From Bradyrhizobium ottawaense (GTDB taxonomy: Bacteria > Pseudomonadota > Alphaproteobacteria > Rhizobiales > Xanthobacteraceae): a stretch of 64,000 bases of DNA. Below the pieces are notes generated by a model. That model had not been told where the DNA came from. It searched no databases and saw only the letters and a list, made by a program, of their open reading frames with translations. Positions 41,175 to 59,747 of the stretch are shown in pieces (the first letter of the stretch is position 1; each line of letters starts with the position of its first letter). The translations under genes were made by a program, and so were the position numbers. The stretch is taken from assembly GCF_002278135.3 (NCBI RefSeq), contig NZ_CP029425.2, forward strand, positions 7,168,001 through 7,232,000, written 5' to 3'.

Positions 41175-43624
<2,450 letters not shown>

Positions 43625-44084: not shown

Positions 44085-44765
44085 ATGCAGGATCTTCTCG
44101 CCCGTCCAATCGAGAGAATACCGTTAAGCTCGCACAGTCCGTTGATGAGCGCCAGTGCGCCTCGGATAGCCGACGAGCTTCGGGCGCGACGCGCCGAGCT
44201 TTCCATGATGAAGCCAGCGGAGGCTACCTCGCTGGTGACCGAAATCGAGGACGCCCTCGCCTCCCCATTGCCCAGCAAGGGACAAGAACTCGTCAAGCGC
44301 GCAGACCTGCTCATCGAGGAAGAATTCAAGGCGATGGCGGCCGAGGAGCGCAGGCGTGCGGTGCTCGAAGGTCTTGCGGGCCTGGGATACGAGGTATCGA
44401 AGGGAATGGCGATTGCCTGGGTCCAGAACGGCCAGATCGTCATTCGTAAGGCGGCCAATCCTGGCTACGGAGTAGAGCTCTTGGGCGGACCCAGATCGGA
44501 TCTCCTTCAGGTGCGTGCCGTAGGTATCGGCAGCTCGGCCGAAGCTCGCGATGCAAGTCGTGACCACGACATGGAAACGATCTGGTGCGGCGAGTTCGAT
44601 CGCCTAAAGGCGTTGGTCGCAGAAGCAGGCGGGAATGTTACTATGGAATTCGCAAGGCCGGTCGGTCGCTTCCCTTTGAAGATCGTCTCAGATCCGGGTG
44701 CAAGCCAAGAAGCAGAGATTGTTGAAAGATCACGTCGAGCACGACCAATCAGCCCCCCTCATTAG
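44085..44765 (+). CDS. Unrecognised ORF, Ala/Arg/Glu-rich helical N-terminus
   Basis: A frame of about 226 codons from the ATG at 44085; it stays open upstream, so the true start is uncertain. The first half is helical (APRIADELRARRAELSMMKP, VKRADLLIEEEFKAMAAEER). The second half looks beta-rich (GMAIAWVQNGQIVIRKAANP, GYGVELLGGPRSDLLQVRAV, NVTMEFARPVGRFPLKIVSD). No family is recognised. It has coding-like composition and no stop codons, but no clear ribosome binding site. It could be the C-terminal part of a larger gene truncated by rearrangement near IS21 copy 2. Confidence 0.55.
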   Translation: MQDLLARPIERIPLSSHSPLMSASAPRIADELRARRAELSMMKPAEATSLVTEIEDALASPLPSKGQELVKRADLLIEEEFKAMAAEERRRAVLEGLAGLGYEVSKGMAIAWVQNGQIVIRKAANPGYGVELLGGPRSDLLQVRAVGIGSSAEARDASRDHDMETIWCGEFDRLKALVAEAGGNVTMEFARPVGRFPLKIVSDPGASQEAEIVERSRRARPISPPH

Positions 44766-45392
44766 CAATTTGCAGGTACCCAGCCATTAACGGGGAAGGT
44801 GATCACGCGGATGCTGGCGAAGATCACAAAAGCTCGTAGCATCTCTTGTGCGCGGCCGAGAGCTTTTGCGGGGGTCGTTTGCTTCACATCGAACAGCGCC
44901 GCTCGGGCGACTTCATCATCCAAACTCCTATAGGCCGCGGGCGGCGCCCCTCAGGAGGATACTTCCAAAGATGGGCGGCGATCACTCATAAGCAAAATAG
45001 TAGGACACGGCGCGCCATTTTCCCGAATTTGTGAGGAGGCCGCATTTTTTCCGCACCCTTCCCTGGCAGCACGCCGAAATCCGGCGAACATTGCGACGCC
45101 GCTGCAGCTAGCTCGGCGAAAGTTCGGCGTACCTGGGAAATAATCTTCTCGGCCTCAGAGGGAAGAAAGTGGCCGATGGGCCGCCGTGCAGCTGTGTCAC
45201 CGCATTAGGGATGTCTGGATTGCAGAGAATGTAACCCATCGGCAGTGGGGTTGGTCTGCATTTTCGGCACGTGGAGCCATCCGGTACGCGGCGACCACTC
45301 CTGTCCAGGTGAGATCGGATGATGGGCTGTGCGGCGGTCTTCCTAACCCTAGAGAGTTGCGCCAATTTTCGAAAGACGATTGCGTCGTTCCA
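44766..45392. other. No recognisable gene
   Basis: No convincing reading frame. This is the upstream region of the large NTPase gene. Confidence 0.4.
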
Positions 45393-45411
45393 GTTGATTG
45401 AACCAATCAAC
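45393..45411. promoter_or_regulatory. Perfect 19-bp dyad upstream of the large NTPase gene
   Basis: GTTGATTG-AAC-CAATCAAC is a perfect inverted repeat with a 3-base centre, 61 bases before the GTG start and 112 before the ATG alternative. It has the size of a dimeric repressor operator. The binding protein is unknown. Confidence 0.5.
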
Positions 45412-45472
45412 ACACGTAAGCTCTCAAGCTGCAAATAGTCATCGCCAATAGTTTTCAATACTCATAGCCGAG

Positions 45473-48400
45473 GTGGCGCCTTCAATCGGCGATCCCCTGC
45501 CCAATTTCCCGTCGAGACCTTTCATGACTTCACCAGAAGCCCTAGACGTACTGATTCTAATCGCGCTGACGGAAGAAGCAGAGACGTTTCACGATTTGCC
45601 GTTTCATAAGCTGAAGGAGGCGCCTCGACTGGGCATTTTTCAGTATCACTCCTTTGAATACGAAGACGCGAACGGCACCTCCCGGCGGGGCGCGTTGGTG
45701 AGCGTGGGCGAAATCGGCCTGCGAATCCGGGATGCGGCGCTTCGCTTTTCGGAGAAATTCTCACCCAAGCTGGTGTTGAACGTCGGCATTTCGGGCCGAA
45801 TAAAGGACGCTCGGGTTGGTGACGTCGTCGTCCCCACTCACATCAATGTCATTGATTACCGAGCGGCTGCGCAGGACGACGAAAAGAATGGGTATGAAAT
45901 ACTTCCCGGCGGCAAACCGGCTCCCGTGAGCATCAGTGCCGGATACGTCGTAAATTCTGTCCCATTCAAGAAGAAGAACAAGCTTCCCAGCATTGACAAT
46001 TTCGCCAAACGAATGGGTTACACCCTCACCCCAAATGAGCGACGGAAGCTGAAAGAATGGGAGGGTGTCAAGGACCTCGCCAAGACGCCGACCGTGGTGA
46101 GCGGGCCTTTTGCAGTCAGCAATCTGCTGATCAAATCAGCGCGCTTCAAAGAACACGTATTGAAGAACGCGGATCGCAACTATGTTGCCGCCGATATGGA
46201 AAGCGGGCTTATTGCGGATGGGCTACTTACATTGACACCGGCGCCGCCATTTTATGCAGTCAGAGCTATCAGTGACCCGGCCACAACACAGAAGCCGGAA
46301 TACGATGCGATCGGCAACGGACTTATCCGCCGCTGGGCGATGTCGAATGCACTGGATACGGTCAAATTACTCATCGCTGAGCCTAGTCTCTTTGGAGACG
46401 AGCGAAAGCTGAGCGGAGTTAGTGGCGTCCCGGAAGACTACAGTCCAGAGTATCCAGGACAGCGAATACTAGGCGCCCCCTCCACTTCAGATTTCGACGA
46501 TCGTTTTTCGAATATGCGCATTACCGTCTCGAAAAGAGATCATGGTGAGACCGTTCTTCCAATTCGGTTTTCGAAGCTCTTGAGCGAAATATTGGAAAAG
46601 CCCAGAGCCGGGTCGTTCCTGGTCCAGGGGCGCGGCGGCGGCGGAAAGACGGCACTCCTGCGAGCCCTCCAGCTTTCAGTTAATGATGCGCACGAAGCAC
46701 CCAAAACAGTGTTCCTCGACGCCCGCAAAATAATCAAGGAAGCCGGATCGGCCGATGCCGTTTCGGTTCTTCGAAGACGTGTCGATCGGGATGCTCCCGG
46801 CCTGATCGACACGAAGGACAACGTTATCGTTTTTCTGGATGGGTTGATCGGAACGGACAGCGAGCGCCCGATCATCGAGGCGCTTTCCCAGCTGCTCGCG
46901 CGCAACGAGCCAACGCTGGTGATCGCGTTCGGAATTGATCATTATGAACTCCAAGCGGACTCAAATGATTACCCTCCGACGCCTTACCTTCACAACAGAA
47001 AGCACGACCGTACGGTCGACTTGAAAGCGATCTCAGTAAACGATGACGCTTTAGCAACGGCGGTTATTGGCGGTATCGTCCGAACGAGCGGAACGAGCAC
47101 GAGCGAGTCACCCGAGGCGATCATTGCTGCGCTTCGAACGCTCGGGTTTCTTTATCTCAATCATTTCGTGGTATCCATATATCTACACAATGCCGGGAAG
47201 ATGGCGTTCGAAGGCAAGAACAGCTCGGCCTTTGTGATCCAATCGATGCAAAACCTCTACGGCGACCTCTACGGCCGCTTCACGAGCCGGCAGTTCAATC
47301 TGCTTTGCGTAGCAGCTCTGCGGTCTTACTGCCGGATCCTGGTGAAAAGTGCCGGATCTCCAGAGCTTGCGACCGCGCATGACCGATACGAGAGCGACTT
47401 CGCGCTTTTTCCACGCATTGTCCAAACCGCACTGATCGCCAAGGCTGTCGTCTATATCCTCGGTGAATTCAACAATCCCAAGAGTAGCAGCGCGATCTTC
47501 AAGTCTACGGGTATTAACGAGGAGCTTTTTCTATCATTGGTGTTTGGCAACGACGTCAACAGCGCTGTCAAGGATCTCATGGCCGACCAGCGCGTCGAGG
47601 ACGCAGTGCTCTCCGCAGCGCACAAGATCTCGGACACCCTTGAGCCCGCTTCACTTTCCTATGCTTTGTATCTTTTCGGACGTGCGCGCTCCGAACGGGG
47701 CAGGCTTCGGGCCGAAAAAGCTTTCGACACAGCCGCTCAAGTGTTGCTGGATCCAGGCACAATATCGCCGAGCGAACAGACCAAATTCTGGCGGCTCGCA
47801 AGACGCTCGCTCTATATCAGCCGCTCGCTAAATGGCGACAAGAAAGCAACCGACTCTTACATCGCCGCCGTCATCAGCGATCCCTATGAAGATCGCTTGA
47901 ACCGGAGCTTTCATCTCGAATACTACCGTGATCACAATGCCACAGGCGTCACAGTGGCGCTCGACCATGAAGACAGAGGAGGTAATTGGCGTCGTACTCG
48001 CCAGTTGCTTGGACGACGGATAGAGGCCGCGATAAGCAGCGGAACGACGGGCGAATACGATCGAATCTGCATTCTGACGTATTTTTCGCTGGTTCGGTAT
48101 CGTCATGAACTCGCGAAATTATCAACAGAACAACGTGAACAAGAGGCGGGTCTCATAAAGAGGCTCATGGCCAGCAACGTGACGTTGGGCCCAGAGCTTT
48201 CAGCCTTTCTAATCATGGTTGAACACGCACTTTCGCGAGAACTCTACTCAAGCCTTGATGCGGTGGTTGAGCTATTTGCCACGAAAGCAATACCGCGGAT
48301 CGGGTGGGTTGATCGCCAGATGACGGCCGAAAAGCAGGTTGTGGAAAGTGTCGCTTCGCATGCCTATGGTGCGATGCTTCTCGTCGACCTTCTGAGCGAA

Positions 48401-48841
48401 CGACTGACGCCGAAACTCGATCCAAAAGAAACAACCCAGATCATCCGAATCCTTTTGTATCACGATATCGCAGAGGCCTACATCGGCGACTACCGCCCTA
48501 CCGACGGCGAGACGAAGTCAAAGGAGATACCAACGATGCATCGCATCGCCGCGCTAGCTACCTATCAGCATTTACCTGGCCTAGCCGCCTCGTTCAGTCA
48601 CTTTCAAAGGTTTGAGACAGGGGCCGATCGGTGCGCGAGCTTGGCTCGCGATTTTGACAAGTTGGACGCCGTTTTCCAGGCGCTAGTCTATGCCAACCAT
48701 TTTCCAACGCTCGATAATCGACGACAGTTCGTCACTGGCAATAAGGAGCGGATCTCAGATCCAGTCCTTCGCGAGATCGCGGATGAGATCTGGCGCCGCA
48801 TTGAAAAAATGCCATTGAAGTCCACAACCGCCGCCTCCTGA
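45473..48841 (+). CDS. Nucleoside phosphorylase - P-loop NTPase - HD nucleotidase fusion protein (candidate antiviral STAND-type)
   Basis: A 1122-residue protein with three parts. Residues about 20-310 are a PNP/MTAN-like nucleoside phosphorylase domain: LILIALTEEAETF, LVLNVGISGRIKDARVGDVV, YVAADMESG with the ribose-binding Met-Glu, and AVRAISDPA with the base-binding Asp. Residues about 350-560 hold a P-loop NTPase (Walker A QGRGGGGKTALL near 385, Walker B NVIVFLDG near 451). A helical, TPR-like stretch follows (about 560-930). Residues about 955-1075 are a YfbR-like HD domain: ESVASHAYG, LLYHDIAEAYIGDY and DFDKLDAVF, with all metal ligands. The GTG at 45473 is the longest start; ATG at 45524 is also possible. 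PNP domains act as ATP nucleosidases in some phage-defence proteins, so an NTPase that senses infection and destroys nucleotides is a reasonable inference. Confidence 0.85.
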   Translation: MAPSIGDPLPNFPSRPFMTSPEALDVLILIALTEEAETFHDLPFHKLKEAPRLGIFQYHSFEYEDANGTSRRGALVSVGEIGLRIRDAALRFSEKFSPKLVLNVGISGRIKDARVGDVVVPTHINVIDYRAAAQDDEKNGYEILPGGKPAPVSISAGYVVNSVPFKKKNKLPSIDNFAKRMGYTLTPNERRKLKEWEGVKDLAKTPTVVSGPFAVSNLLIKSARFKEHVLKNADRNYVAADMESGLIADGLLTLTPAPPFYAVRAISDPATTQKPEYDAIGNGLIRRWAMSNALDTVKLLIAEPSLFGDERKLSGVSGVPEDYSPEYPGQRILGAPSTSDFDDRFSNMRITVSKRDHGETVLPIRFSKLLSEILEKPRAGSFLVQGRGGGGKTALLRALQLSVNDAHEAPKTVFLDARKIIKEAGSADAVSVLRRRVDRDAPGLIDTKDNVIVFLDGLIGTDSERPIIEALSQLLARNEPTLVIAFGIDHYELQADSNDYPPTPYLHNRKHDRTVDLKAISVNDDALATAVIGGIVRTSGTSTSESPEAIIAALRTLGFLYLNHFVVSIYLHNAGKMAFEGKNSSAFVIQSMQNLYGDLYGRFTSRQFNLLCVAALRSYCRILVKSAGSPELATAHDRYESDFALFPRIVQTALIAKAVVYILGEFNNPKSSSAIFKSTGINEELFLSLVFGNDVNSAVKDLMADQRVEDAVLSAAHKISDTLEPASLSYALYLFGRARSERGRLRAEKAFDTAAQVLLDPGTISPSEQTKFWRLARRSLYISRSLNGDKKATDSYIAAVISDPYEDRLNRSFHLEYYRDHNATGVTVALDHEDRGGNWRRTRQLLGRRIEAAISSGTTGEYDRICILTYFSLVRYRHELAKLSTEQREQEAGLIKRLMASNVTLGPELSAFLIMVEHALSRELYSSLDAVVELFATKAIPRIGWVDRQMTAEKQVVESVASHAYGAMLLVDLLSERLTPKLDPKETTQIIRILLYHDIAEAYIGDYRPTDGETKSKEIPTMHRIAALATYQHLPGLAASFSHFQRFETGADRCASLARDFDKLDAVFQALVYANHFPTLDNRRQFVTGNKERISDPVLREIADEIWRRIEKMPLKSTTAAS

Positions 48842-49078
48842 TGAACCTTGCATGATCCAACGGCATCGCTGTGCCCTTCGAACCCAGGAAGAGGGACTAG
48901 CGGCGGCCGGCCAACAACTCTCGCGGATCCGACACCTGATCGCTCCGCCTCCCTTTTTCAGTCCGATTGGCTGCAGAACGCGTGAACTCGTTCGATACCG
49001 CCCGCGACGTCATCCATGCCAAGCAAGCTCTTTACCTAATTCAACTCAACGTCTAGCTGAAGTATTGGGGGCTGATAC

Positions 49079-49900
49079 ATGCATTGCGATAAAGTCTTTT
49101 CGCTATTGCTAGCATTTTCACTTGCGGCCTGCGGAACTCAACTGCCTGACTTGACCGGCCAGCAGGCACTTCCTCGGGACCGATTGATCGGCGCAATACA
49201 CTGCGAACTCGCCGACGCCATCCGGGAACAGCTTCTTCACAGGACCGATCGCCGTTTCCTGATCGACTGGCAAGCTGCTTACACAATTACACTCAAAGGC
49301 AACGAGACCGGCACACTCGCAGCAGATGCCAACAAAATTCCGATTCCCTTCGATAGGGTCGATTCAGCCTGAACGTCTCCGACATCGATTTTCGTGCTGC
49401 CCCTTGCGCCGAGACTTATGCAACTGCAACTCATCCTTTTCTGCGCGGCAACATCGGCTTTGGTCAATGGCTGAACGAGGCGCTCGGTACGAGCATCTCG
49501 GATGGCTTGATCGCAAACCATCCGGACCGCCTCACCAGTGTCGGAAATACGTTCCAATTTGTCGTGCTCGCGACGGCAGCAATTTTCGCGATCGTGACGT
49601 CGAGGCCAGGCTCGACCACTGCTGGCTTGCCAGGATAAGGCGAAGGCGTCCGTCCTGGACATGGAAGCAATTGACCGACGAATCCCTGAAACAGAAGCAG
49701 CTGAAGCTGAGGGTCAGCTATCGCAAGGCGTACGAGCGCTACCTCAGGCTTGATGAATTCGGACCGATCAACAACAAGATGGTGCGCGACATCGAACTCC
49801 GCGACCTGGAAAAGGTCCGGAACCAAAACCGCGCCCGGCGAAGGTCAGGCCGAACCTGTTCGAGCGCTTTGGAATTCGTCCCTGGAGCCCGCACGATTGC
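49079..49900 (+). pseudogene. Bradyrhizobium-type lipoprotein, frameshifted
   Basis: The start encodes a lipoprotein signal (VFSLLLAFSLAACGTQLPDL, lipobox LAAC) followed by TGQQALPRDRLIGAIHCELA and FLIDWQAAYTITLKGNETGT. The frame stops at 49372 and continues in another with SLNVSDIDFRAAPCAETYAT, GNIGFGQWLNEALGTSISDG and VGNTFQFVVLATA, then again shifts. The combined order resembles hypothetical lipoproteins common in Bradyrhizobium (about 350-400 residues). At least two frameshifts make it non-functional. The cellular role of the family is unknown. Confidence 0.7.
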
Positions 49901-50314
49901 AGGACAACGATGACGACGTTCCTGGATGACCGCAGACTGGGCGGCGCCGCCAGCGCGATACTTGCCCACAAGCAACCGAACTCGGATTCCAGCCGGGAGG
50001 CGCGCGAGAGGCTCGCTCCAGTCATCGAGCAGCACTACAATCTTTCGCAACGCATTCGATTGAAGGCTGATGGCCTGGCTCTTTGGGTCAAGGCCGTCCT
50101 GAGTGCCACAATCGGGAGCAGAGGCGTTTCCAGGCCGCCTCGCAACGTCGCGCGGCCGCGTGACCGGGAGGACCTACGTAAAAAGCGCGGAGGAGATCGA
50201 GGCATACGCGAGAGTTTCTTCGTGCGTCCGCGCTTTGTCAGCCGGCATTTTTTGTCCGCCATCGAAAGCCTAAGCGGCGCATTGGCCATTCGGATCGCTC
50301 TGCCCGGTGCCCGC
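49901..50314. other. No recognisable gene
   Basis: A plus-strand frame (49910-50332) is open but Arg-rich and without a domain. It may be degraded 3' sequence of the lipoprotein gene. Confidence 0.3.
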
Positions 50315-51940
50315 TTAGGGCCGCATGCGTGAAGCGAAACGGTGCAGCTCCACCCGGTCCTGATCGTTGAGATAGAAGCCTCGGGCCGGATATTCGTTCG
50401 TGCCGCCCTTTAGGACGCGTCGCTCCTCAATCTGCGAAATGAGATAGGCGAAAGCCGGATTGAAGCGCCGGAGCGGCCAGCCCGTTTCCTTGTGCAGTTC
50501 CTCAACGCCGACGGTTCCCTTCTTGGCCAGAACCGTATCGACGAGAGTCACGACGTCGACGGCAGGATCGCCCCCCAAGGCGTAGGGATCGAACGTGATG
50601 TAGAGGCTGGCATTGCTGGTCATGCGCGGCAGCCGTTTGGCGACGAACGAGGTTGTATTGATAAAGTCATCCGTCGACAATTCAGCGACGGCGAAAGCCA
50701 GCTCATCAAGCGAGGCATCAGGAAACGCGGCAATCAACTCGTCCTCTGGTATGAAATCGCTATAGCCGTGGGTCGATTCCTTGGCGATCCACAGACCGAT
50801 CTTGACCGCGAGCGGTCCTAGCTCGCCAATTTTCACTGCAGCAGTCTCCCTTGTAGGCGGCGCGACGATGGCTTTCGTCGTCGAATTTTCCACCGGTGGC
50901 GGCGAGCCATTGGCCAGCCAGGCGTCCAGACCATTGACGACCATCTGACCAATTTCAGCGAATTGCAGGATTTCGTCGCCGACGAGCGGCACGGTCTCGC
51001 CGAGCCGGGAATCAGCGGCGTGCTCGGCGAAAGCTGCATCCGCAACGCCAAGGTTGTGCCCGATGACATGGCGCTTTTGAATATTCAGTGTCAAAACCGC
51101 AAGCGCGGCCGGCGAGAGCACGGCATAGGGATCGAAATCGAACTCCGCGAAGCGTTGTTGCCCGCGGCCAATATTCTGAAACGCGTTGCCGACCGTTTTT
51201 GCGTCCGGCGAACCAGCTGGTCGAATTGCCACTTTGTGAAGATAGACCGTCTTGAGCGTCGCTTCGAAGGCGGTCAGCACGTCCTCGTGGGCGTTGCCCA
51301 GGAGCCGATAGGCCAACTCGCTCTGGTCCTCGCCAAGGCCGTGGGCCAGTTTGACCTGATCCCGCACCAGCATCACTTCGCGGGCGAAATGGAGATGGAT
51401 GTTCGGGGCGCCGCAATCGGGACAGAACAGCGAAATGGCGAAAACGCCGTAGTCACGGCCGCACTCGTCGCAGATCAATTCACGTAGCAAATCGCTGCGC
51501 ACGAAGCGGGGCACCGGCTTGTGTACGGGCCGGGGACCAGCCTTGATCTTGATCGATTTGCTTCCCGAAAACTTCCGCCCGAGATCTTCAAACATCCCGT
51601 GGATCGCTTCCTGCATGTCTGCGCGCGCCGCATGTTCCACGATCTTTCTCGCGGCAGCGAGATCGTCAGGATGCGTGAAGTCGTTGTCGGGCGCGACGAC
51701 GCCGCTGTAGGGGCAAACCGTTTCGGGAACGCCCGGTTGATGCGACATGCGGGGTGTCATCGCCTCCGGCAACGAGAAGCCCTCGACTCGACTGCCCATG
51801 ACGAAATGGCGCGGGTGCGCGTGTTCGTTGGGCGAGTATCGATACACCCGGCCGTCCGGCGTTTGCGGCAAGGGAATTCCGAGCTGCATGGTGCTACCCG
51901 ATTTGCCCCGCTGGTACTTTTCAAGATTCCGAAATCTCAC
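50315..51940 (-). CDS. Unrecognised 541-residue protein with a zinc-ribbon motif
   Basis: A four-cysteine zinc ribbon is clear near residues 155-180: CDECGRDYGVFAIS then LFCPDCGAPN. The N-terminal part is polar. The middle is helical (RDQVKLAHGLGEDQSELAYR, AHEDVLTAFEATLKTVYLHK). The C-terminal 150 residues contain winged-helix-like stretches (VGVEELHKETGWPLRRFNPA, AYLISQIEERRVLKGG). The start is the GTG at 51940 with GAGGGA ten bases upstream; ATG at 51889 is the alternative. No family is recognised. Single gene, between defence-type genes on both sides. DNA or RNA binding is plausible from the ribbon, but no function can be assigned. Confidence 0.75.
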   Translation of the reverse strand: MRFRNLEKYQRGKSGSTMQLGIPLPQTPDGRVYRYSPNEHAHPRHFVMGSRVEGFSLPEAMTPRMSHQPGVPETVCPYSGVVAPDNDFTHPDDLAAARKIVEHAARADMQEAIHGMFEDLGRKFSGSKSIKIKAGPRPVHKPVPRFVRSDLLRELICDECGRDYGVFAISLFCPDCGAPNIHLHFAREVMLVRDQVKLAHGLGEDQSELAYRLLGNAHEDVLTAFEATLKTVYLHKVAIRPAGSPDAKTVGNAFQNIGRGQQRFAEFDFDPYAVLSPAALAVLTLNIQKRHVIGHNLGVADAAFAEHAADSRLGETVPLVGDEILQFAEIGQMVVNGLDAWLANGSPPPVENSTTKAIVAPPTRETAAVKIGELGPLAVKIGLWIAKESTHGYSDFIPEDELIAAFPDASLDELAFAVAELSTDDFINTTSFVAKRLPRMTSNASLYITFDPYALGGDPAVDVVTLVDTVLAKKGTVGVEELHKETGWPLRRFNPAFAYLISQIEERRVLKGGTNEYPARGFYLNDQDRVELHRFASRMRP

Positions 51941-52115
51941 AGTCAGGCATCCCTCGAGATATTAGGGTTACGGCGAATCTGTTCTCGATATCCAGCCTAC
52001 CAGGCTCGTTGGCCGTTTTGGCTATCCGAATTACGGTGTGGATATCGCGATCAGGCGGTTGCGGAGCCGGTAGTTCAGCACGCGATTGGCAGCGGTTTTT
52101 TAACCGGCTGGCGTG
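51941..52115. other. Intergenic
   Basis: Contains the promoter of the zinc-ribbon gene. Nothing else is recognised. Confidence 0.4.
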
Positions 52116-52292
52116 ATGCCGATGATCGGCATGGGCATGATCATCCAGCAGGTGCTGCTGGCGATCAAGGTGATCACGGTAATCACGGGAACGGCAATGC
52201 TCACGCTGCTGGTGCTGCTGGTGCTGCTAGTGTCGATGACGATGATCGGCGTCATTAGCAGCACCATGGTCGACCCAGCTAGGTCTCCCTAG
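52116..52292 (+). CDS. Possible small hydrophobic membrane peptide
   Basis: The frame encodes 58 residues with one long hydrophobic stretch (IIQQVLLAIKVITVITGTAM then LTLLVLLVLLVSMTMIGVIS). Third positions are strongly GC-rich, as in real genes here. The +1 frame of the same DNA instead gives a Gly/His/Asp/Ala repeat (GDQGDHGNHGNGNAHAAGAA), and the DNA itself is repetitive (CTGCTGGTG units), so the hydrophobic frame may be an accident. No ribosome binding site is obvious. Such peptides can be toxins of small toxin-antitoxin systems, but this is speculation. Confidence 0.3.
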   Translation: MPMIGMGMIIQQVLLAIKVITVITGTAMLTLLVLLVLLVSMTMIGVISSTMVDPARSP

Positions 52293-52364
52293 CCCCGTCC
52301 TTCAGGGTGCGAGCTTCCTCTGCGCGCGACATCAGAAACTCCGCGAGCGTCTTTGCCACATCCT

Positions 52365-53161
52365 TCAGCGGGCCGGGTCGACCGCGACCTGCTTAGTGAA
52401 CGCCGCCCACTGATCCTTTTTGCCGGCGTCCTCGGTGAAGGCCGCGGTGAACGCGTCCGGCAATGCGGTCGGAATCTCGGTCTTGCGGCAAGTGAACGTC
52501 GCCTTGATGGCGCGGGCTAGGGCGTCGTCGTCGAACTTGTAGGAGCGGATCAACACCCAGACGTCGTAGAAGTCCTTTAGTCGGCTATTCGCGAGGCCAA
52601 GCGCGACCATCGCCTGGAACTTCTCGGCAATGACGGTCTCGCGCGGATAGGAACGCAGCTTCGGCGCCGGGAAATCCAGCAGGACCGGCAGGTCGGTCTC
52701 CTGCACGCCGGGCTCGATGGCGTCGCCGAACGCGATGTCGATCACGACGCGAACGCGGGCGTTATCGACCGCTGCATTGCTCTTGATCCGGACGCCGCCG
52801 TATTCGTTTTCGTCGCGGATGCGGTCGACGGTGAAGCTGGCCGGTCGAAGATGACGCCGTCGGCTGTGTCGACGGCGGCGATCTCCTTGAAGATTGCCAA
52901 CAGCGCGTCGGGGTCGGGATTGCCCGAGCCGAGAAGATCGAGGTCGGGCGTTGGCCGGAACTGGTTGTCGACCCAGGTCGCAAGCAGCATCGCGCCCTTA
53001 AGGACGAAGCGGTTACGGTAATCCGTCGAGCCAAGGCGATATAGCAGCCGTTCAAGCACATAGCGGGTAAGGAGAAGGTCGAACGGCTGGTTACGCTCCT
53101 TGGAAAGCGTGAGCAGCCGCGCACGAACCGAGGCCGCGACATGCTTGGGTGGGTTAGCCAT
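52365..53161 (-). pseudogene. abiEii: AbiEii nucleotidyltransferase toxin, frameshifted (module 1)
   Basis: The 5' frame has the nucleotidyltransferase core FVLKGAMLLATW and PTPDLDLLGSG. At about 52845 a single base appears to be missing (the DNA GACCGGCCAGC for an expected F-D-P-A-S-F). The reading then continues in the next frame as SFTVDRIRDENEYGGVRIKS, VVIDIAFGDAIEPG, SYPRETVIAEKFQAMVALGL and LKDFYDVWVLI, all conserved in type IV AbiEii toxins. Its ATG overlaps the antitoxin stop by 8 bases. Loss of the toxin by frameshift next to an intact antitoxin is a common fate of such modules. A sequencing error could also explain one missing base. Confidence 0.85.
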
Positions 53162-53798
53162 TGGCGATCATCGCGTCCATATAAGGCTGCATGGCCTTCC
53201 AGACCCCGGCCTTGCGCGCGAAATCCGCTATCTCCGAAGGCTTCGCCTTGGGGGTTCGCAGGGCCTCACGCATGCCTTCAAGCGCGAGGTTGAGGCCGGT
53301 ACTATGACGATAGCGTGTCCCGGCGCTGCGTCGGTAGCGAAAAAGATCGACGACGGTCTTGGCGGGGCTGAAGATCTTCACCGGGCAACCTTCGATCGTA
53401 TGGGTCTCGACACCCTCCTGAAGGCGTTCCGAGCTGAAGCGAACGAACTGCATGGGCGGATTGGTTGGACGGGGCTGGCGGTCTTTGGGACCGATGGCGA
53501 GCCAGACCATCGAAGGAATGGTGTCGGTCAGCTCATGGAAGGCGAGGGCCGAGGTTAGCGCGACGACCCCTTTGGGCACGCGCTTGGCGGCTTCTGCGAG
53601 GGAATGATGCGTGTCGATGGGCGCATCGGGCAGTTGGTAGAGGCCGCGTCCGAGCTGGACAACGAGGCCCTTTTCCTTCATGCGCGCGATAGTCGCGGCG
53701 GTGACGCCAGCCGTGGCAAGCTCGGAGGGGCGCGCGATGCCGCGCGCCTTGAGGAGTTCGATGGCACGGGCCTGTTGTGTCGAAATTGACTTGGCCAC
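53154..53798 (-). CDS. abiEi: AbiEi-type antitoxin/transcriptional regulator (module 1)
   Basis: The 214-residue protein has the N-terminal winged helix of AbiEi antitoxins (AIELLKARGIARPSELATAG, TAATIARMKEKGLVVQLGRG) and the C-terminal antitoxin domain (SSERLQEGVETHTIEGCPVK, IFSPAKTVVDLFRYR). It normally represses its own promoter and neutralises the AbiEii nucleotidyltransferase. It overlaps the toxin gene by 8 bases. The protein is intact although the toxin gene is broken. The DNA directly upstream (53815-53870) is unusually AT-rich, consistent with a promoter. Confidence 0.92.
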   Translation of the reverse strand: MAKSISTQQARAIELLKARGIARPSELATAGVTAATIARMKEKGLVVQLGRGLYQLPDAPIDTHHSLAEAAKRVPKGVVALTSALAFHELTDTIPSMVWLAIGPKDRQPRPTNPPMQFVRFSSERLQEGVETHTIEGCPVKIFSPAKTVVDLFRYRRSAGTRYRHSTGLNLALEGMREALRTPKAKPSEIADFARKAGVWKAMQPYMDAMIANG

Positions 53799-54408
53799 GG
53801 CTTTGATCTTATTTGTCGGATATACTTACTATATATCATACATTCCATATCATTCCCGCCCCTCGCTAGCAACAGGTAAACAACCCAGTTCCCAGGTATG
53901 TATTCAATTCGACCTCGCATCCCAACAACTGCGGCATCGAGGAAATCATCGTCGGTCCCGCCCTCGGGCCACAGCAGGTTTGGGCGGTGGAGGCAATTTT
54001 GGCGACCCATCTAGATGCGCCTTGCCATTAAACGATCGGCGATACCGTATGTCGCGGACTGAATGCCCCGCGCGCCTGATATGCTTCACCAACTTAGAGC
54101 CCGAAGGCGGGCAGAGTCTGCGACCGGAACGCAACAATCGTTACAATTTATGATTGTCTCAGCTCTAAAGCTTGCGCCTGCGATCGGCCCGGTCGAGGCA
54201 CGGCTGAGTCGGTAACCTGCCGAGCATGCTCCACATCTTTCCCAACTAACCGGCGGCGATCCGATAGGGCACCGATCGTGGCGTCGTCTCGTCGGAGACT
54301 ATTCGGCAGGCGCATTTGATTGACATCGATCACATTCGCACTCGGCGGAGCCAATTAGGTGATCTGCACGATAACTGATCGAGCTCAGCGCATGAACTCC
54401 GACCATCT
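53799..54408. other. Intergenic; AT-rich promoter region of module 1
   Basis: The first 70 bases are AT-rich with partly symmetric TATA-containing words, likely promoter and operator of the AbiE module 1. The rest contains no recognised gene. Confidence 0.4.
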
Positions 54409-55434
54409 CTAGATTTTCAAGGCTGGTCTGTTCGCGCGGCTTTCGATGTCCGCACACCGTTGCATTAGCGTATCAAAGATCTCTGGCTCATCCAGCAAGA
54501 GGCCGTCGTCGACCATGTGTTGATAGTCCTGTTCCAAAACGGCTCGCGCTTCCCCTTCAGGGACGAGCTTCAATGCACCATTGACTACCTTGTGATAGTC
54601 AATCATCGCACCGGCAAGGTCCTTTTCAGAGAAGAACCATGTTTTATGCTCTGCCACCGTGTTAGCCAGTTCTCGGTCTTTTAATGCGGCGTCCGCGATC
54701 CCCGCGTCATCCAGCCTCACCAGATCGTACCAGTGGCGAGCAAAACGCTCGCCTCGCAGTTTGCCCTGGACACAAAAAACATGGATGGCGGTCGCCTTCT
54801 CCCAGAAGGTGCGCTCCGCTTTCATGGTTTTCGGCCGGGCAGTGGGAAACTCGAGAGTTTCAAGATACTGGGCCGCGTCGCAAACCACGTCGTGAAGCTC
54901 GCTCGGCTCGCCGGTGGATCTTGCGCCGAATTCAAGCATGACGGCGGGGCTCACATAGCCATTGCCCGTCTCCAAGGGAGCGTATCGGACGAAGATTTTG
55001 TCATCATCGGCTTCCGCCTTTGCACTCAGCTTGTCGTTTTCCAGACACTGATTGATAACGGGAAGCGCCTTTTCTTTCACCCAAATTGGAAGTCGCTCTC
55101 GGACCTGGTCGCTCCATTTTTTGCCCTGGCTTCGGGTCTGAGGGACAGGATTGCTCTCGCTTGTTTTCACGAGATCAGGGGCTATTGCCCGAATATCGTA
55201 GGTAAGGTCGACGTCCTCTGAGAAGCGGCGGATCGCGCCGTACGCCTTGGAAAGGGACGTTCCGCCCTTGAAAACGAGGTGCTCTCCCAGTGGAGAGGAA
55301 AAGAGTGCGTTCAAGCACCAAACAACCCAGACATCTTTCTCAAGGAGATGTGCCGGACGTCCTGAATTGGAAGCAGCAACGCCGAGCGCCTCTCGGCGCT
55401 CGGCGTCAGACAGGTTTAGGAACCTGTCAGACAT
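54409..55434 (-). CDS. abiEii: AbiEii-family nucleotidyltransferase toxin (module 2, intact)
   Basis: The 341-residue protein carries the nucleotidyltransferase motifs HLVFKGGTSLSKAYGAIRRF and SEDVDLTYD, a conserved central region (FVRYAPLETGNGYVSPAVML, EFGARSTGEPSE) and the C-terminal RFARHWYDLVRLDD element. No frameshift is seen. The catalytic Gly-Gly/Ser and Asp-Val-Asp are intact, so the toxin is probably active in transferring nucleotides to an RNA target such as tRNA. The ATG overlaps the antitoxin stop by 8 bases (ATGTCTGA), so the pair is translationally coupled. Confidence 0.92.
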   Translation of the reverse strand: MSDRFLNLSDAERREALGVAASNSGRPAHLLEKDVWVVWCLNALFSSPLGEHLVFKGGTSLSKAYGAIRRFSEDVDLTYDIRAIAPDLVKTSESNPVPQTRSQGKKWSDQVRERLPIWVKEKALPVINQCLENDKLSAKAEADDDKIFVRYAPLETGNGYVSPAVMLEFGARSTGEPSELHDVVCDAAQYLETLEFPTARPKTMKAERTFWEKATAIHVFCVQGKLRGERFARHWYDLVRLDDAGIADAALKDRELANTVAEHKTWFFSEKDLAGAMIDYHKVVNGALKLVPEGEARAVLEQDYQHMVDDGLLLDEPEIFDTLMQRCADIESRANRPALKI

Positions 55435-56017
55435 GCAGTTCGCTTACCGGCCTGGCAAGCCAAGTCGGCAATGAAGACGCCGCGGACTTAAGTTCCCTCA
55501 CTTCGGTCGGTGTCAGTTTCTGACTGACCGACCGCAATGCTCGTTCTGCCGTCTTGGGACCAAGCCAGGCAAGCGCACGCACCACCTCACCAGCACGACG
55601 GTTCGCCAGCGTAAGCTGCCAAAGCGGCGCATGCTTGAGCTGGACAACTTGCTTGCCAAGGTGGAGCTCGCGGGAAGGACCAGAGGTAAGGTAAACCTGA
55701 CGGACAGGTACCTGCGTTGTCAAACCAAGATGGTTGGCCGCCGCCGCGCCGCTAGAAACAATGGTCTCACCGCTGCGAGCCTTGGTTTCCTCAACGACTT
55801 TTTCGACCGACGGAGCTCTAACCCCGAAACGGCTTTCGACCGGACGCAGATACACCCCTCGCCTCGCGCGCAGGAGCTTTCCTCGCTCGGCAAGACGCGA
55901 AAGGGCCTGATCGACAGCAGCACGCTTTCCAAGGTGCAAAAGCGCCTTGGCAGCAATCGGTGCGCCTTCGGGCAGTTCTTTGGTGACTTCCAAAATCCGG
56001 GTGCTAAGGGCGATCAT
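55427..56017 (-). CDS. abiEi: AbiEi/DUF6088-type antitoxin (module 2, intact)
   Basis: A protein of about 196 residues with a winged-helix N-terminus (LSTRILEVTKELPEGAPIAA, AVDQALSRLAERGKLLRARR, GVYLRPVE) and a C-terminal part typical of DUF6088 antitoxins (SSGAAAANHLGLTTQVP, VYLTSGPSRELHLGKQVVQL). The ATG at 56017 is preceded by GGAG at eight bases. A perfect inverted repeat lies 14 bases upstream of the start, fitting negative autoregulation known for AbiE. Sequence differs strongly from module 1, so the two modules are not recent duplicates. Confidence 0.9.
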   Translation of the reverse strand: MIALSTRILEVTKELPEGAPIAAKALLHLGKRAAVDQALSRLAERGKLLRARRGVYLRPVESRFGVRAPSVEKVVEETKARSGETIVSSGAAAANHLGLTTQVPVRQVYLTSGPSRELHLGKQVVQLKHAPLWQLTLANRRAGEVVRALAWLGPKTAERALRSVSQKLTPTEVRELKSAASSLPTWLARPVSELHV

Positions 56018-56030
56018 GGCTCTCACTCCA

Positions 56031-56060
56031 GTGTCAGAAACATAGGAGAACTTCTGACAC
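56031..56060. promoter_or_regulatory. Operator-like inverted repeat of AbiE module 2
   Basis: GTGTCAGAA (56031-56039) and TTCTGACAC (56052-56060) form a perfect 9-bp inverted repeat with a 12-base spacer, just upstream of the antitoxin ATG. AbiEi antitoxins are known to bind inverted repeats in their promoters. Confidence 0.72.
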
Positions 56061-56240
56061 CCCGCAAGAGCTAGATTTCAAAAAGGTTTCGACGTCAAAT
56101 CAAGGATTTACCCTAATTGAGACCGATTCGGACCTTTTTTTGGAGGCAAAAAGGCGGTTCCTGCCCTCCCCGTCCAACGTGCTGGGGCCGGGACCATTCA
56201 GAACGGCCTGGTTATCGGCGGAGCAACCGCAATCGCTTCC

Positions 56241-56705
56241 CTATGATAGGAACTGCCGACCTTCAACGAGGATTGCCCGCCTCCCACCCACGAAGATCTC
56301 CAGATCCCGGGAAAACAGGCAGACGAGATCGACACCGCGGCTCAGCGACAACGAAATTGCGCTGTTGTAAGCCGCGCCCCTGTTTGCCTCTGCCGCACCA
56401 GATGCTGTTGTCGCGACAATGCGGTAAGACCAGCCCGCGCACTTATAGGAGCTGGACTTCCTCGATCGGCCGAACGCAACCGCTCCATCGTGGGCGCTCT
56501 CGTTATCCGCCATCGCTTGCCGAACCCGGCTGCCAAAGTCCTCGCCAAAGACAAAGCCTCCACTCAGCATCGGAACGCGAAGCATCGAAACACAATCCGG
56601 CGGCTCTTCGCTTCCGGTGAAGAACACGACCAGCAAAGGGTAGCGAGGAAGACCTTCAGAATGTACTTTCCGAAGCAGCGCTTCGATATCCATTTCCTCA
56701 GACAT
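56241..56705 (-). CDS. Diadenylate-cyclase-like (DisA_N/DAC-like) small protein
   Basis: The 154-residue protein lacks transmembrane segments. Its second half follows the DAC fold order: AHDGAVAFGR (the DGA motif of diadenylate cyclases, usually LHDGAV), then a strand CAGWSYRIV, then ANRGAAYNSAISLS where DAC proteins have TRHRAAIGLS, and a final VDLVCLFSRDLEIFVGG strand pair. The RHR triad is only partly kept, so nucleotide chemistry is uncertain. Its start codon is 11 bases from that of a divergent Cap15-like gene, so the two share a regulatory region. A homologue with a different function remains possible. Confidence 0.55.
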   Translation of the reverse strand: MSEEMDIEALLRKVHSEGLPRYPLLVVFFTGSEEPPDCVSMLRVPMLSGGFVFGEDFGSRVRQAMADNESAHDGAVAFGRSRKSSSYKCAGWSYRIVATTASGAAEANRGAAYNSAISLSLSRGVDLVCLFSRDLEIFVGGRRAILVEGRQFLS

Positions 56706-56716
56706 TTGCTTCGGAC

Positions 56717-57301
56717 ATGCCTTCAGGCTTTTCGATCTCAGTGATCATCATCGTTGCGGCCGCGGTCTGGGCAATTTCACTCCTGTACTTCGGAGTAGAC
56801 CTATCCTGGGATTACGCCAAGCCATTTTCGGTCACGGTCGCGGTCGTTACCGGCCTCTTGACGGCCTTCGACCGGGTACTGTGGCGGCACTGGCCGTTCC
56901 GGCTTTTTCACAAGACACCCGACCTCTCCGGCGAGTGGGGCGCTGAATTATTGTCCTCCTACGCCGAACAGGGTGGCCGAGAGAACAAGACGATCACCGG
57001 CACCGCCACGATTACGCAAACCTACACATCGTTATCGGTTCGATTGGTGACAGGCGAAGAGCCCAACACAAACAGATCCTTTCAGCTTGCTGGACGGCTG
57101 ATCCGTCACAATGACGGTGTCTATGAAGTGATTGGCGTTTACCAGAGCGACCCCGACATTCTCGCTCGCGGCACGCAGACCGAAATCCACTATGGCGCAT
57201 TCCGCTACCGCGTCATCGGTACGCCGCCGAAGAAGATGAGCGGTCATTACTGGACCGATCGCAATACCAAGGGATCGATCCAACTCAAGAAACGCCTATG
57301 A
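56717..57301 (+). CDS. Cap15-like membrane effector (2TM plus beta-barrel)
   Basis: The 194-residue protein starts with two hydrophobic helices (SVIIIVAAAVWAISLLYFGV and PFSVTVAVVTGLLTAFDRVL). A beta-rich domain begins TPDLSGEWGAELLSSY and includes ITGTATITQTYTSLSVRLVT and MSGHYWTDRNTKGSIQL. This layout matches the CBASS effector Cap15 (S-2TMbeta), whose barrel binds a cyclic dinucleotide and whose oligomerisation disrupts the inner membrane. No CD-NTase gene is adjacent; the divergent neighbour is DAC-like instead. Assignment rests on topology and the WTDRxTKG segment. Confidence 0.75.
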   Translation: MPSGFSISVIIIVAAAVWAISLLYFGVDLSWDYAKPFSVTVAVVTGLLTAFDRVLWRHWPFRLFHKTPDLSGEWGAELLSSYAEQGGRENKTITGTATITQTYTSLSVRLVTGEEPNTNRSFQLAGRLIRHNDGVYEVIGVYQSDPDILARGTQTEIHYGAFRYRVIGTPPKKMSGHYWTDRNTKGSIQLKKRL

Positions 57302-57347
57302 GAACTTGGTCTTCCGGGTACCGACTTTAGAGCGCTCGCCGTTCAAT

Positions 57348-57930
57348 CTAAGCCGAGGTCACGCCGGGAAAGTCGGGCGGATCGGGCTTGTGAGTCAGAA
57401 ATTTTTGAAGTGCATTATCAGCAGAAACCTTCTGGAAGCTACCTTCCGCCAGGCCAAGCAACGTGCCTTGAGCGTTCGCGCCGAGCAACATCCAGGGCCA
57501 AATCTGCCTGCTGCTCTTCCGATTGGGTGGCATCGATTCGCAGATAGCGTTCGCCCAGTTGTGGCGCAGCATGTAATCGACGAGCTGCTGCTGTGAGGAA
57601 ACGATCGTTCTCAAGAGCCGGCCTCGCATCATCCATTTCGCGCTGCCGAGATCGCGACCGAGGGATCGCTTGAGGGAAAATCCGGTCGAAGTGGTGCCGA
57701 TGCTGAGGATCGAGATCTGACACACATCTTGCTCAGAAAGTGCGTTGCCTCGTGCAGGGCACATTGGTCAGGGGCATTGGCGACGAGACCGCCGTCGGCA
57801 TAGTGCGCAGCGCCAACCTCCGCCAGTGGGAAGTGGGGATTATGTACTTCGCACACCCATTTTGGTGGATACACGCGGTTTGACTGAGGAACCCGGGCAG
57901 GAATCGGGTAAGTTGCATTCGGGGGTTTGA
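57348..57930 (-). pseudogene. Patatin-like phospholipase remnant (CapV-like)
   Basis: Three frames on the minus strand hold consecutive C-terminal parts of a patatin-like phospholipase: AAHYADGGLVANAPDQCALH with the catalytic Asp-Gly, then SILSIGTTSTGFSLKRSLGR, LRTIVSSQQQLVDYMLRH, LGERYLRIDATQSEEQQADL, LLGLAEGSFQKVSADNALQK and FLTHKPDPPDFPG. The N-terminal part with the nucleophile GxSxG is missing, cut off near the KilA-N gene start. At least three frameshifts are present. Phospholipases of this type are CBASS effectors, which suits the neighbouring Cap15-like gene. Confidence 0.75.
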
Positions 57931-57946
57931 GTGCAACTGGAGATTC

Positions 57947-58729
57947 GTGGTGAATCAGTCTCGTTCTATCGTGATCAGGGGCAGCAAGATTTTCGAGGAC
58001 GAATACGGGCTTATTTGTCTCGATGATCTCTGGCGAGCCGCCAAAGCTCCCGACAGTAAGGTTCCGGCCAAATGGCGGCGTGGCCGCATGGCCAGCGCTC
58101 TGATCATTGAGCTTGAGAAAAAGATCAGAATTTCTTCTTTGAAAGAAAATAAGACAATAATTCCAGCTATTTACTCCAAGCGTGGGAGAGGCAGTACCGG
58201 CACCTACGCCCATCCGATCATTGCCGCCGCATACGCTGGCTACCTGAGCCCAAAGCTGGAACTTGAGGTTCGGGAAGTTTGGCTTCGCTACCGTGCTGGC
58301 GATGCCACGCTTGCTGACGAGATTCTGGAACGGGCGACGGCGGAGGAAAACCGTTGGGCTGGTGCGCGGGCGCTATCCCGCTCCCAGCGGGTAACCTACA
58401 CGGACACCCTCAAGGCCCATTACGTGACCGGGCGCGGTTATATGGACTGTACGGAAGCGGTCTACCTCAAGCTTCTGGGCGGCAAGTCCTACCAGCTCCG
58501 CGAGTTACGCGGCCTTGCTCCGAAGGTGAACGTGCGGGACAACCTTTCGGTCGCCGAGCTTTCGTTCGTCATGGCCGCCGAAGCCCTCGCTGCCGAGCGC
58601 ATCGAAGAGGAGCTTAGGCTTGGAAACGATGAATGCGTCGAGGCGAGCGGCCGAAGCGCCTCAGCGATCCGCGAAGCCATTGAAGCCGACCGGAAGGCGC
58701 GAAAGGCTCCCCGACTCACAAATACCTAG
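57947..58729 (+). CDS. KilA-N domain protein
   Basis: The 260-residue protein has a KilA-N-type N-terminal domain (GLICLDDLWRAAKA, PAKWRRGRMASALIIELEK, TYAHPIIAAAYAGYLSPKLE) typical of phage and mobile-element DNA-binding proteins. A helical C-terminal part follows with a segment resembling phage antirepressor-associated domains (TLKAHYVTGRGYMDCTEAVY). The GTG start has TGGAG upstream. It overlaps the 3' end of a 49-residue gene on the other strand by 3 bases. A role in phage-type regulation is possible; the target is not known. Confidence 0.85.
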   Translation: MVNQSRSIVIRGSKIFEDEYGLICLDDLWRAAKAPDSKVPAKWRRGRMASALIIELEKKIRISSLKENKTIIPAIYSKRGRGSTGTYAHPIIAAAYAGYLSPKLELEVREVWLRYRAGDATLADEILERATAEENRWAGARALSRSQRVTYTDTLKAHYVTGRGYMDCTEAVYLKLLGGKSYQLRELRGLAPKVNVRDNLSVAELSFVMAAEALAAERIEEELRLGNDECVEASGRSASAIREAIEADRKARKAPRLTNT

Positions 58730-58875
58730 TCGCCGTTCTTATCGGTCGGCTTAGGGCGCTCGGCGGGCTTCTGCCGAGCGATTTTGCCGAGTCGCTCGTC
58801 GAACCGCTTTTCATCATCGTCCGTCTCTAACTCGCGGGCGGCTTGCTTGAACTTTTCCAGTTGCTTCTTGGTCAC
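58726..58875 (-). CDS. Small charged protein, 49 residues
   Basis: The GTG at 58875 is preceded by GGTGGATCTC. The product is highly charged and helical: MTKKQLEKFKQAARELETDD, EKRFDERLGKIARQKPAERP and PKPTDKNGD. Short proteins of this composition are seen next to mobile genes in Rhizobiales, but no function is known. It lies between KilA-N and DUF3800 on the opposite strand, its promoter facing that of the DUF3800 gene. Confidence 0.6.
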   Translation of the reverse strand: MTKKQLEKFKQAARELETDDDEKRFDERLGKIARQKPAERPKPTDKNGD

Positions 58876-58886
58876 GAGATCCACCG

Positions 58887-59747
58887 ATGCCTAAGGTAAT
58901 GTGCCTATATATGGATGATTCCGGAACGCGGAATCCTGACAAGAAGATTGCCGACGATCTTACGTACAAAGACTGGTTCGCATTGGGCGGCATTCTCATG
59001 AAGGAAGAGGATGACGGCCAAATTGTCACCCAGCACGCAAAGTTCTGCGAAACCTGGGGCATTACATACCCGCTCAGATCATACGACATTCGGCTGTGGG
59101 ACAAGCGGTTCTCCTGGCTTCGGACGCTTTCCGCCGAGGAGCGCGGGAAGTTCATGCGCGGGTTGGGCGACTTGCTAACTGGCATTCCTGTTATCGGGTA
59201 TGCCGCTGTGATCGATCGGCCCGGGTATAATGCACGGTATCGAGAGAAGTACGGAAGGCAGACATGGCAGCTTTGCCAGACTGCCTTTAGCGTTATCTGC
59301 GAGAGAGCCGCGAAACGGGCCCGCTCCGAGGGCTGTAAATTGCGCGTCTTTGTCGAGGAGGGCGATAAGACTGCCGACGGCCACGTTCGGCAGTACTATT
59401 CCGACCTCAGAACCAAAGGGATGCCATTCGACACCGGCAACATGAAGAAGTACGCGCCGATGACACAGGAAGAGTTGGCCGACACCCTCTACGATTTGAG
59501 ATTCCGGACGAAAAAGTCACCGCTGATGCAGATCGCCGACGTGTATCTCTATCCCATGGCTCGGGGCGGGTACGACCCGAACTACACGCCCTACCAAATG
59601 CTCAGAACAAGCAAGAAGCTCATCGATGACTTGTTGTCCGAAGAAGAAACCCCACACCTCGGCATTAAATACAGCTGCTTTGAAATGGTCGAAAAAGCGC
59701 GCGAGAGGGCAAAAAGCAAAAAAGCCAGTCGCAAGACTGGCTCTTAA
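58887..59747 (+). CDS. DUF3800-family protein
   Basis: The 286-residue protein starts MCLYMDDSGTRN, the Asp-Asp-Ser-Gly that opens DUF3800 proteins, which have an RNase-H-like fold. It ends its core with QIADVYLYPMARGG, the second acidic motif of the family. Intermediate acidic residues lie in RVFVEEGDKTADGHV. DUF3800 proteins occur in phages and defence islands; a nuclease role is likely but unproven. The ATG at 58887 has CTAAGG upstream. Its last codons form a hairpin that can terminate transcription coming from the opposite side. Confidence 0.88.
   Translation: MPKVMCLYMDDSGTRNPDKKIADDLTYKDWFALGGILMKEEDDGQIVTQHAKFCETWGITYPLRSYDIRLWDKRFSWLRTLSAEERGKFMRGLGDLLTGIPVIGYAAVIDRPGYNARYREKYGRQTWQLCQTAFSVICERAAKRARSEGCKLRVFVEEGDKTADGHVRQYYSDLRTKGMPFDTGNMKKYAPMTQEELADTLYDLRFRTKKSPLMQIADVYLYPMARGGYDPNYTPYQMLRTSKKLIDDLLSEEETPHLGIKYSCFEMVEKARERAKSKKASRKTGS
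59718..59742 (-). terminator. Hairpin terminator for minus-strand transcripts, inside the DUF3800 3' end
   Basis: AGCCAGTC-GCAA-GACTGGCT is a perfect 8-bp stem with a tetraloop (59723-59742). On the minus strand it is followed by a run of T (complement of the AAAAA before 59723), so it should stop transcripts arriving from the IS1595 side. On the plus strand it lacks a T run. Confidence 0.65.

Follow-up and report, generated by a model that had tools for sequence, protein, structure and literature searches.

NLR-like or STAND-type proteins are laid out, according to passages of PMC12931631, with the effector at the N-terminus, the NTPase in the middle and the sensor at the C-terminus, and purine nucleoside phosphorylase (PNP) effectors on NLR-like proteins have already been described (Rousset et al. 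2023, as given in a table of PMC10952713). The PNP effector of Detocs is presented in part of PMC11249213 as cleaving ATP, and Clover CloA, in sections of a preprint (PMC12265719), as an HD dGTPase that answers to dTTP, a nucleotide raised by phage. We analysed a stretch of 64,000 nucleotides from Bradyrhizobium ottawaense (contig NZ_CP029425.2, positions 7,168,001 to 7,232,000; hereafter the window), whose genome is one contig of 8.59 Mb, and found a gene that joins a PNP domain, a P-loop NTPase, a long helical region and an HD domain on one chain. Its product is probably an NLR-like defence protein, of which the HD domain is the new element.

The nearest described plan is that of the PNP NLR-like proteins, represented here by two loci (L011, 1748-4888, and L021, 3122-6187), the one from a genome of the window's order, the other from its class. 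They encode proteins of 1021-1046 amino acids (aa) with PNP and nSTAND_NTPase4, the match of L011 lying just below the cut-off and that of L021 above it, and their PNP part matches a PADLOC CBASS effector and PDC-M60C. The N-terminal PNP, the P-loop NTPase behind it and the long C-terminal part are shared, but these proteins show no HD in Pfam, whereas the Bradyrhizobium protein ends in a complete HD_3 domain. Avs/AVAST proteins (e.g. Avs5, in parts of PMC12931631) also share the effector, NTPase and C-terminal plan, and EfAvs5 (9jap) was among the Foldseek matches; in contrast, the Bradyrhizobium protein carries an enzyme domain at its C-terminus.

The protein resembles Detocs and Clover but belongs to neither. 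With Detocs the protein shares an MTAN-type PNP domain; however, the Bradyrhizobium system is one gene with its own NTPase, and no histidine kinase or response regulator was found among 30 neighbouring open reading frames (ORFs) scanned with Pfam, namely 14 of the window and 3, 11 and 2 of three loci carrying relatives of the gene: L002 (Bradyrhizobium sp. CCBAU 43298, with a near-identical copy), L010 (with the gene of database protein P0007, the proteins being identical) and L003 (B. altum Pear77). The kinase domain seen in L002 is of the protein-kinase type and lies inside a helicase-nuclease protein. A Detocs-like set was also observed on a plasmid of Klebsiella quasipneumoniae (L013, 6040-12954), with PNP and a C-terminal TIR on one effector chain and an insertion sequence between the effector and kinase genes. 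With CloA, as presented in the same sections of the preprint, an HD-fold nucleotide enzyme is shared, the tie to phage-altered nucleotide pools being an analogy, but the Bradyrhizobium HD is of the HD_3, monophosphatase type and is fused to an NTPase and a PNP domain; no dGTPase-type HD was found, the Pfam matches being HD_3, HD and YfbR-like and the PDB profiles YGK1/HDDC2-like. The YGK1/HDDC2/YfbR proteins have the same HD domain with reported metal and sugar-site residues, but 5yox, 4dmb, 2cqz, 1xx7 and E. coli YfbR are stand-alone proteins of 177-215 aa. The initial annotation knew of no described system with both domains on one STAND-type chain. Among the matches listed in the open-access literature (subscription journals lay mostly outside this scope), none presents by its title and abstract start an HD deoxynucleotidase fused to a STAND protein with PNP or TIR; PNP on NLR-like proteins is already known. 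A term search returned no 'HD domain' from PMC7159879, and the 'PNP' in passages of PMC13236601 is a plasmid name.

The gene lies in an open frame of the plus strand (45473-48841; 1122 codons, no internal stop), and residues are numbered here from its first codon, GTG 45473. This frame, as first reported, was confirmed to be open, but its GTG start was not retained: because the near-identical L002 copy and the nearest relatives begin at residue 18, the true start is probably ATG 45524, and a start at the GTG would add 17 residues that the nearest relatives do not have. The parts of the gene are as follows.

45524 to 48841, plus strand: PNP-NTPase-helical-HD coding sequence, 1105 aa from the probable ATG start
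45536 to 46399, plus strand: PNP/MTAN-fold nucleosidase domain, residues 22-309
46484 to 47092, plus strand: P-loop NTPase of the AAA+/STAND class, residues 338-540
46628 to 46651, plus strand: Walker A codons, residues 386-393
47093 to 48262, plus strand: all-helical region, residues 541-930
48263 to 48802, plus strand: HD_3 (YGK1/HDDC2/YfbR-type) domain, residues 931-1110

The fusion proposed by the initial annotation was borne out, since one intact gene, Pfam, relatives and fold evidence all speak for it, and the motifs that it had listed were all found again. In the N-terminal part these are GISGRIKDARVGD, AADMESG and ISDPA; PNP_UDP_1 matched residues 26-273 above its curated cut-off (E=4e-8) and an MTAN fold was found for this part of the predicted structure. 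E243 and D268 align with E174 and D197 of E. coli MtnN and E35 was matched to E12 by eye, the three MtnN residues being those that we take to be catalytic in the PNP site. E35, E243 and D268 were kept in all 14 rows with a complete PNP, P0012 (a record without N-terminus, which has E243 and D268) and P0014 (which has TIR) being left out; a hypergeometric figure of 0.006 for the three sites is a guide only, as kinship of the rows is ignored. The domain thus combines a PNP/MTAN fold with the catalytic Glu/Glu/Asp set. The announced P-loop (Walker A, GRGGGGKT) is followed by a Walker B (VIVFLDG) within residues 338-540, Pfam matches here staying under the cut-off (AAA_16, E=0.004; nSTAND_NTPase5, E=0.009), and the long helical region was recovered behind it. 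In a structure comparison, Orc, p97, NOD2 and the resistosome of a plant NLR scored no more than about 1.5 Z apart; the structure match lists are dominated by the NTPase part.

For the C-terminal part, which contains ESVASH, YHDIAEAYIGD and DFDKLD, HD_3 matched residues 938-1094 above its curated cut-off (E=3.4e-14) and the YfbR-like family under it (E=0.007). Fold checks by profile and structure search, as proposed at the outset, gave the HD match as well as the MTAN fold: the solved HD protein 5yox was matched at E=1.8e-15, and the best PDB profile matches were YGK1, HDDC2 and a pair of small HD chains resembling them. Parts of PMC8177086 give H33, H68, D69 and D137 as metal ligands of YfbR, R18, W19 and D77 as the source of its deoxyribose specificity, and H61, H89, D90 and D159 as the reported ligands of YGK1. 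The counterparts of the YfbR site are H963, H997, D998 and D1062 for the metal and R942, W945 and D1006 for the sugar. All except D1062 are covered by a direct hhalign alignment to YfbR (YfbR residues 10-102), which is weak (Prob 14.9, E=0.0018, one-row template; hmmsearch 12.8 bits); D1062 was assigned via YGK1, whose four ligands align with H963, H997, D998 and D1062. E1001 sits opposite YfbR E72, a residue presumably with a role in that site. All 16 rows (the window and P0002-P0016, with P0001, the window's own type, left out) carry these eight residues unchanged, with a hypergeometric figure of 7e-8 that is again a guide only, as it ignores kinship of the rows. The YfbR-like site reported beforehand is therefore complete, with its H...HD...D ligands and R/W/D sugar site: the domain is, as judged by sequence, of the deoxynucleoside monophosphate (dNMP) phosphatase (YGK1/HDDC2/YfbR) type, and hydrolysis is predicted for it.

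Sixteen database proteins of 1005-1167 aa share the plan. A first search among 5.8 billion proteins gave 14, of which one is of the window's own type and the other 13 have 40-90% identity, and a second one, started from the body of P0014, gave 16 proteins, two of them new; both scored only the roughly 8,000 candidates that had the most words in common with the query. Names of the sources include Bradyrhizobium, Oryzifoliimicrobium and Novosphingobium. HD_3 was present in all 16 and PNP in 15 by Pfam (that of P0008 was seen in a direct scan and is absent from the precomputed list), and the PNP domains of P0013 and P0016 matched PADLOC PDC-M60C. In P0014, TIR_2 at residues 7-103 replaces PNP, and the NTPase, helical and HD parts are kept at 32%, 42% and 47% identity, respectively. 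When HD residues 905-1122 were used as query, 9 proteins were obtained, all family members, and no fusion of this HD to other long proteins, in a search whose yield was 9 of the family's 16 members.

The NTPase was the least conserved part (20 of 203 columns invariant over 16 rows), the helical region (59/390) and HD (26/180), over these 16 rows too, being about equal to PNP (53/288, over its 14 rows). Against the B. altum copy, the ratio of nonsynonymous to synonymous substitution rates (dN/dS) was 0.12 over 971 codons, computed on the second open frame only, with 0.07 for the helical region, 0.10 for HD, 0.19 for the NTPase and 0.25 for a PNP piece of 158 codons; against the L010 copy, dS was saturated and the ratio incalculable. 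A chance ORF with misread motifs was ruled out by the relatives, dN/dS, Pfam, the MTAN fold and the 5yox match.

Distribution was narrow. Full-length copies were found in 4 of 265 Bradyrhizobium species, including the window's own, and in one of 397 genomes of the order, one of 385 of the class and one of 398 of the phylum, each time the window's own genome. PNP-only or HD-only pieces occurred in further genomes (1 in the order, none in the genus, 4 in the class, 2 in the phylum). These searches scored at most two candidates per genome in the rows shown, with E limits of 1e-10 for order and genus and 1e-8 for class and phylum; a single-protein query search likewise found only the own genome among 100. 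One of the four genus genomes (G460, to which L003 may belong) has the gene split over two frames; in the B. altum Pear77 copy (L003, 3505-6806) the two frames overlap, by assembly error or decay. A scan of viral contigs with two short peptide patterns returned 78 stretches and, at that sensitivity, no relative.

Several neighbours of the gene could be assigned to defence or mobile families.

52365 to 53798, minus strand: AbiEi/AbiEii type pair, the AbiEii part in two open frames
54409 to 56026, minus strand: second pair, AbiEi-like (DUF6088)/AbiEii
56717 to 57301, plus strand: Cap15-type two-transmembrane (2TM) effector, the genome's only PF18153 match
41175 to 43531, minus strand: pair of IS21-type transposase genes (assigned by eye), upstream of the stretch common to L002

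The AbiEii neighbours account for 3 of the 6 match pieces of the genome, including the two best. The AbiEii-type gene at 52365-53161 (minus strand) is in two overlapping frames, has the same two lengths in L002 (16893-17689) and may be decayed. A CD-NTase was absent from the scanned window ORFs. ORFs around the Cap15 gene lie at 56241-56705 (minus), 57947-58729 (plus) and 58887-59747 (plus); genes for a KilA-N and a DUF3800 protein follow downstream, and a 154-aa ORF lies divergent beside it. Residues 70-178 of a 541-aa protein without Pfam match (window 50315-51940, minus) match PADLOC PDC-M14A (E=1e-10).

By BLASTN, L002 matched window 44167-58839 at 99.6% and L003 matched 45295-49577 in two pieces, while L010 gave no match to the window. 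Upstream of the gene in L002 (1535-7939), and outside the matching part, which starts at 44167 beside the IS21-type element, a 2134-aa kinase-helicase-MTES_1575 nuclease matched PADLOC PDC-S37 (E=1e-151) and Hhe. In L010, DpdF is matched by an HNH-DEAD neighbour and type IV restriction models by one with MrcB_N and HNH; the neighbours in L003 include ORFs for a BrnA-type antitoxin and for an S1/P1 nuclease. ORFs of at least 90 aa from window 34001-64000, L002 and L003 were compared with those of L010, and no clear partner gene emerged among the four loci, a small downstream ORF aside. This ORF (49079-49372, plus), lipoprotein-like by eye and without Pfam match, and its L002 copy gave the sole L010 match besides the gene and its antisense frames (30% over 86 aa, E=1e-5), with a 309-aa ORF (L010 5692-6621, plus) that is 3.9 kb from the gene and in the other relative orientation; it may be a chance match or the remnant of a linked gene. 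Beyond the gene and ORFs inside it, the window or L002 matched L003 in one antisense ORF of the downstream flank that they share, and L002 ORFs did so in two short stretches (38 and 33 aa).

The reading that we tentatively favour is a single-protein NLR-like (STAND-type) abortive-infection receptor in which HD senses, or gates on, dNMPs and PNP kills. The domain and site assignments rest on sequence or predicted structure, and from these we infer every later step. In the resting state the NTPase would keep the protein inactive. Upon infection, the helical-HD part would recognise a change in the cell, most likely dNMPs freed by phage breakdown of host DNA, which HD would bind and, serving as an inbuilt timer, may also hydrolyse. 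The NTPase would then drive assembly, the N-terminal PNP (TIR in P0014) would strip the base from ATP or related nucleotides, and the infected cell would stop. The domain order matches the STAND plan, by which the C-terminal part would be the sensor. Because TIR replaces PNP in P0014 and the rest is kept, the N-terminus may be regarded as an exchangeable effector and the C-terminal part as fixed recognition; because HD belongs to this kept core and lies at the STAND sensor position, it may stand on the sensing side. Sensing of dNMPs is proposed because the site is that of a dNMP phosphatase, because phage nucleases degrading host nucleic acids may raise nucleoside monophosphates and dNMPs, as suggested in passages of PMC8136825, and because Clover offers a precedent. 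The role of PNP as the killing enzyme is probable and a part for HD in sensing or gating quite conceivable; that its ligand is a dNMP is doubtful, and the fullest version, a STAND receptor of phage-degraded host DNA debris whose HD both reads and destroys the dNMPs and whose PNP/TIR killer is exchangeable, is rather unlikely.

A number of observations weigh against this receptor. A complete catalytic HD site exceeds the needs of a pure sensor, and STAND membership of the NTPase is likely only, AAA+ and NLR structures scoring alike. PNP is about as conserved as the supposed sensor, and conservation alone cannot separate sensor from effector; the PNP-for-TIR swap was found in only one of the 16 database proteins. 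PADLOC lacks a model that covers the protein as a whole and reported only PtuA (E=0.02, over 45 residues). The neighbourhood survey envisaged by the initial annotation did yield defence genes (the AbiE pairs, Cap15, PDC-S37), but many other neighbours match no Pfam family, or only families without a link to defence, and the tally is an inventory in which the genome background was compared for single families only.

Since the HD site is catalytically complete, the main rival is a receptor with two effectors, its helical region reading the signal while PNP cleaves ATP-type nucleotides and HD cleaves dNMPs, which would deprive the phage of DNA precursors by two routes. The initial proposal of two effectors flanking one sensor NTPase was of this kind, and its premise of intact sites, both of which are invariant, was upheld. 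An HD deoxynucleoside triphosphatase is moreover a defence effector in Clover (PMC12265719, sections of the preprint), and Kaur et al. 2021 name HD and PNPase, in parts of PMC8195603, as possible C-terminal effectors of NCOA6-clade TRADD-N proteins. However, HD stays at the sensor position when TIR replaces PNP and so behaves as core, and removal of dNMPs alone would be a mild weapon; we consider this account rather unlikely. The catalytic residues kept in every row would also suit a brake, by which HD destroys an endogenous activating nucleotide and sets the threshold for a helical region sensing a phage protein, and nucleotide-set thresholds on an HD enzyme are described in the Clover preprint (PMC12265719, in part). 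No nucleotide-making gene was recognised among the 30 scanned neighbour ORFs, AbiEii-type nucleotidyltransferases (at least 3.5 kb downstream in the window) excepted, and a brake appears improbable. Finally, the two chemistries are consecutive, HD making a deoxynucleoside from a dNMP and PNP then removing the base, and the gene is the only HD_3 match in a genome with 4 other PNP_UDP_1 matches, as might be expected of a housekeeping or salvage enzyme. Its restriction to so few species of the genus, an NTPase and about 390 helical residues without clear purpose and the TIR of P0014 make such a role very improbable.

To our knowledge, STAND defence proteins with a worked-out trigger mostly recognise phage proteins. 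If the favoured receptor reading is true, the nucleotide-pool sensing presented for Clover in sections of PMC12265719 would reach NLR-like receptors as well, through a STAND protein with a conserved deoxynucleotidase at its end, raising the question whether a dNMP switches on an ATP-cleaving receptor. If HD is a second effector instead, the single chain would form a receptor armed with two weapons. The gene appears to be a one-gene system transferable to laboratory E. coli, and it may encode an alarm against viruses in which DNA building blocks are read or destroyed.

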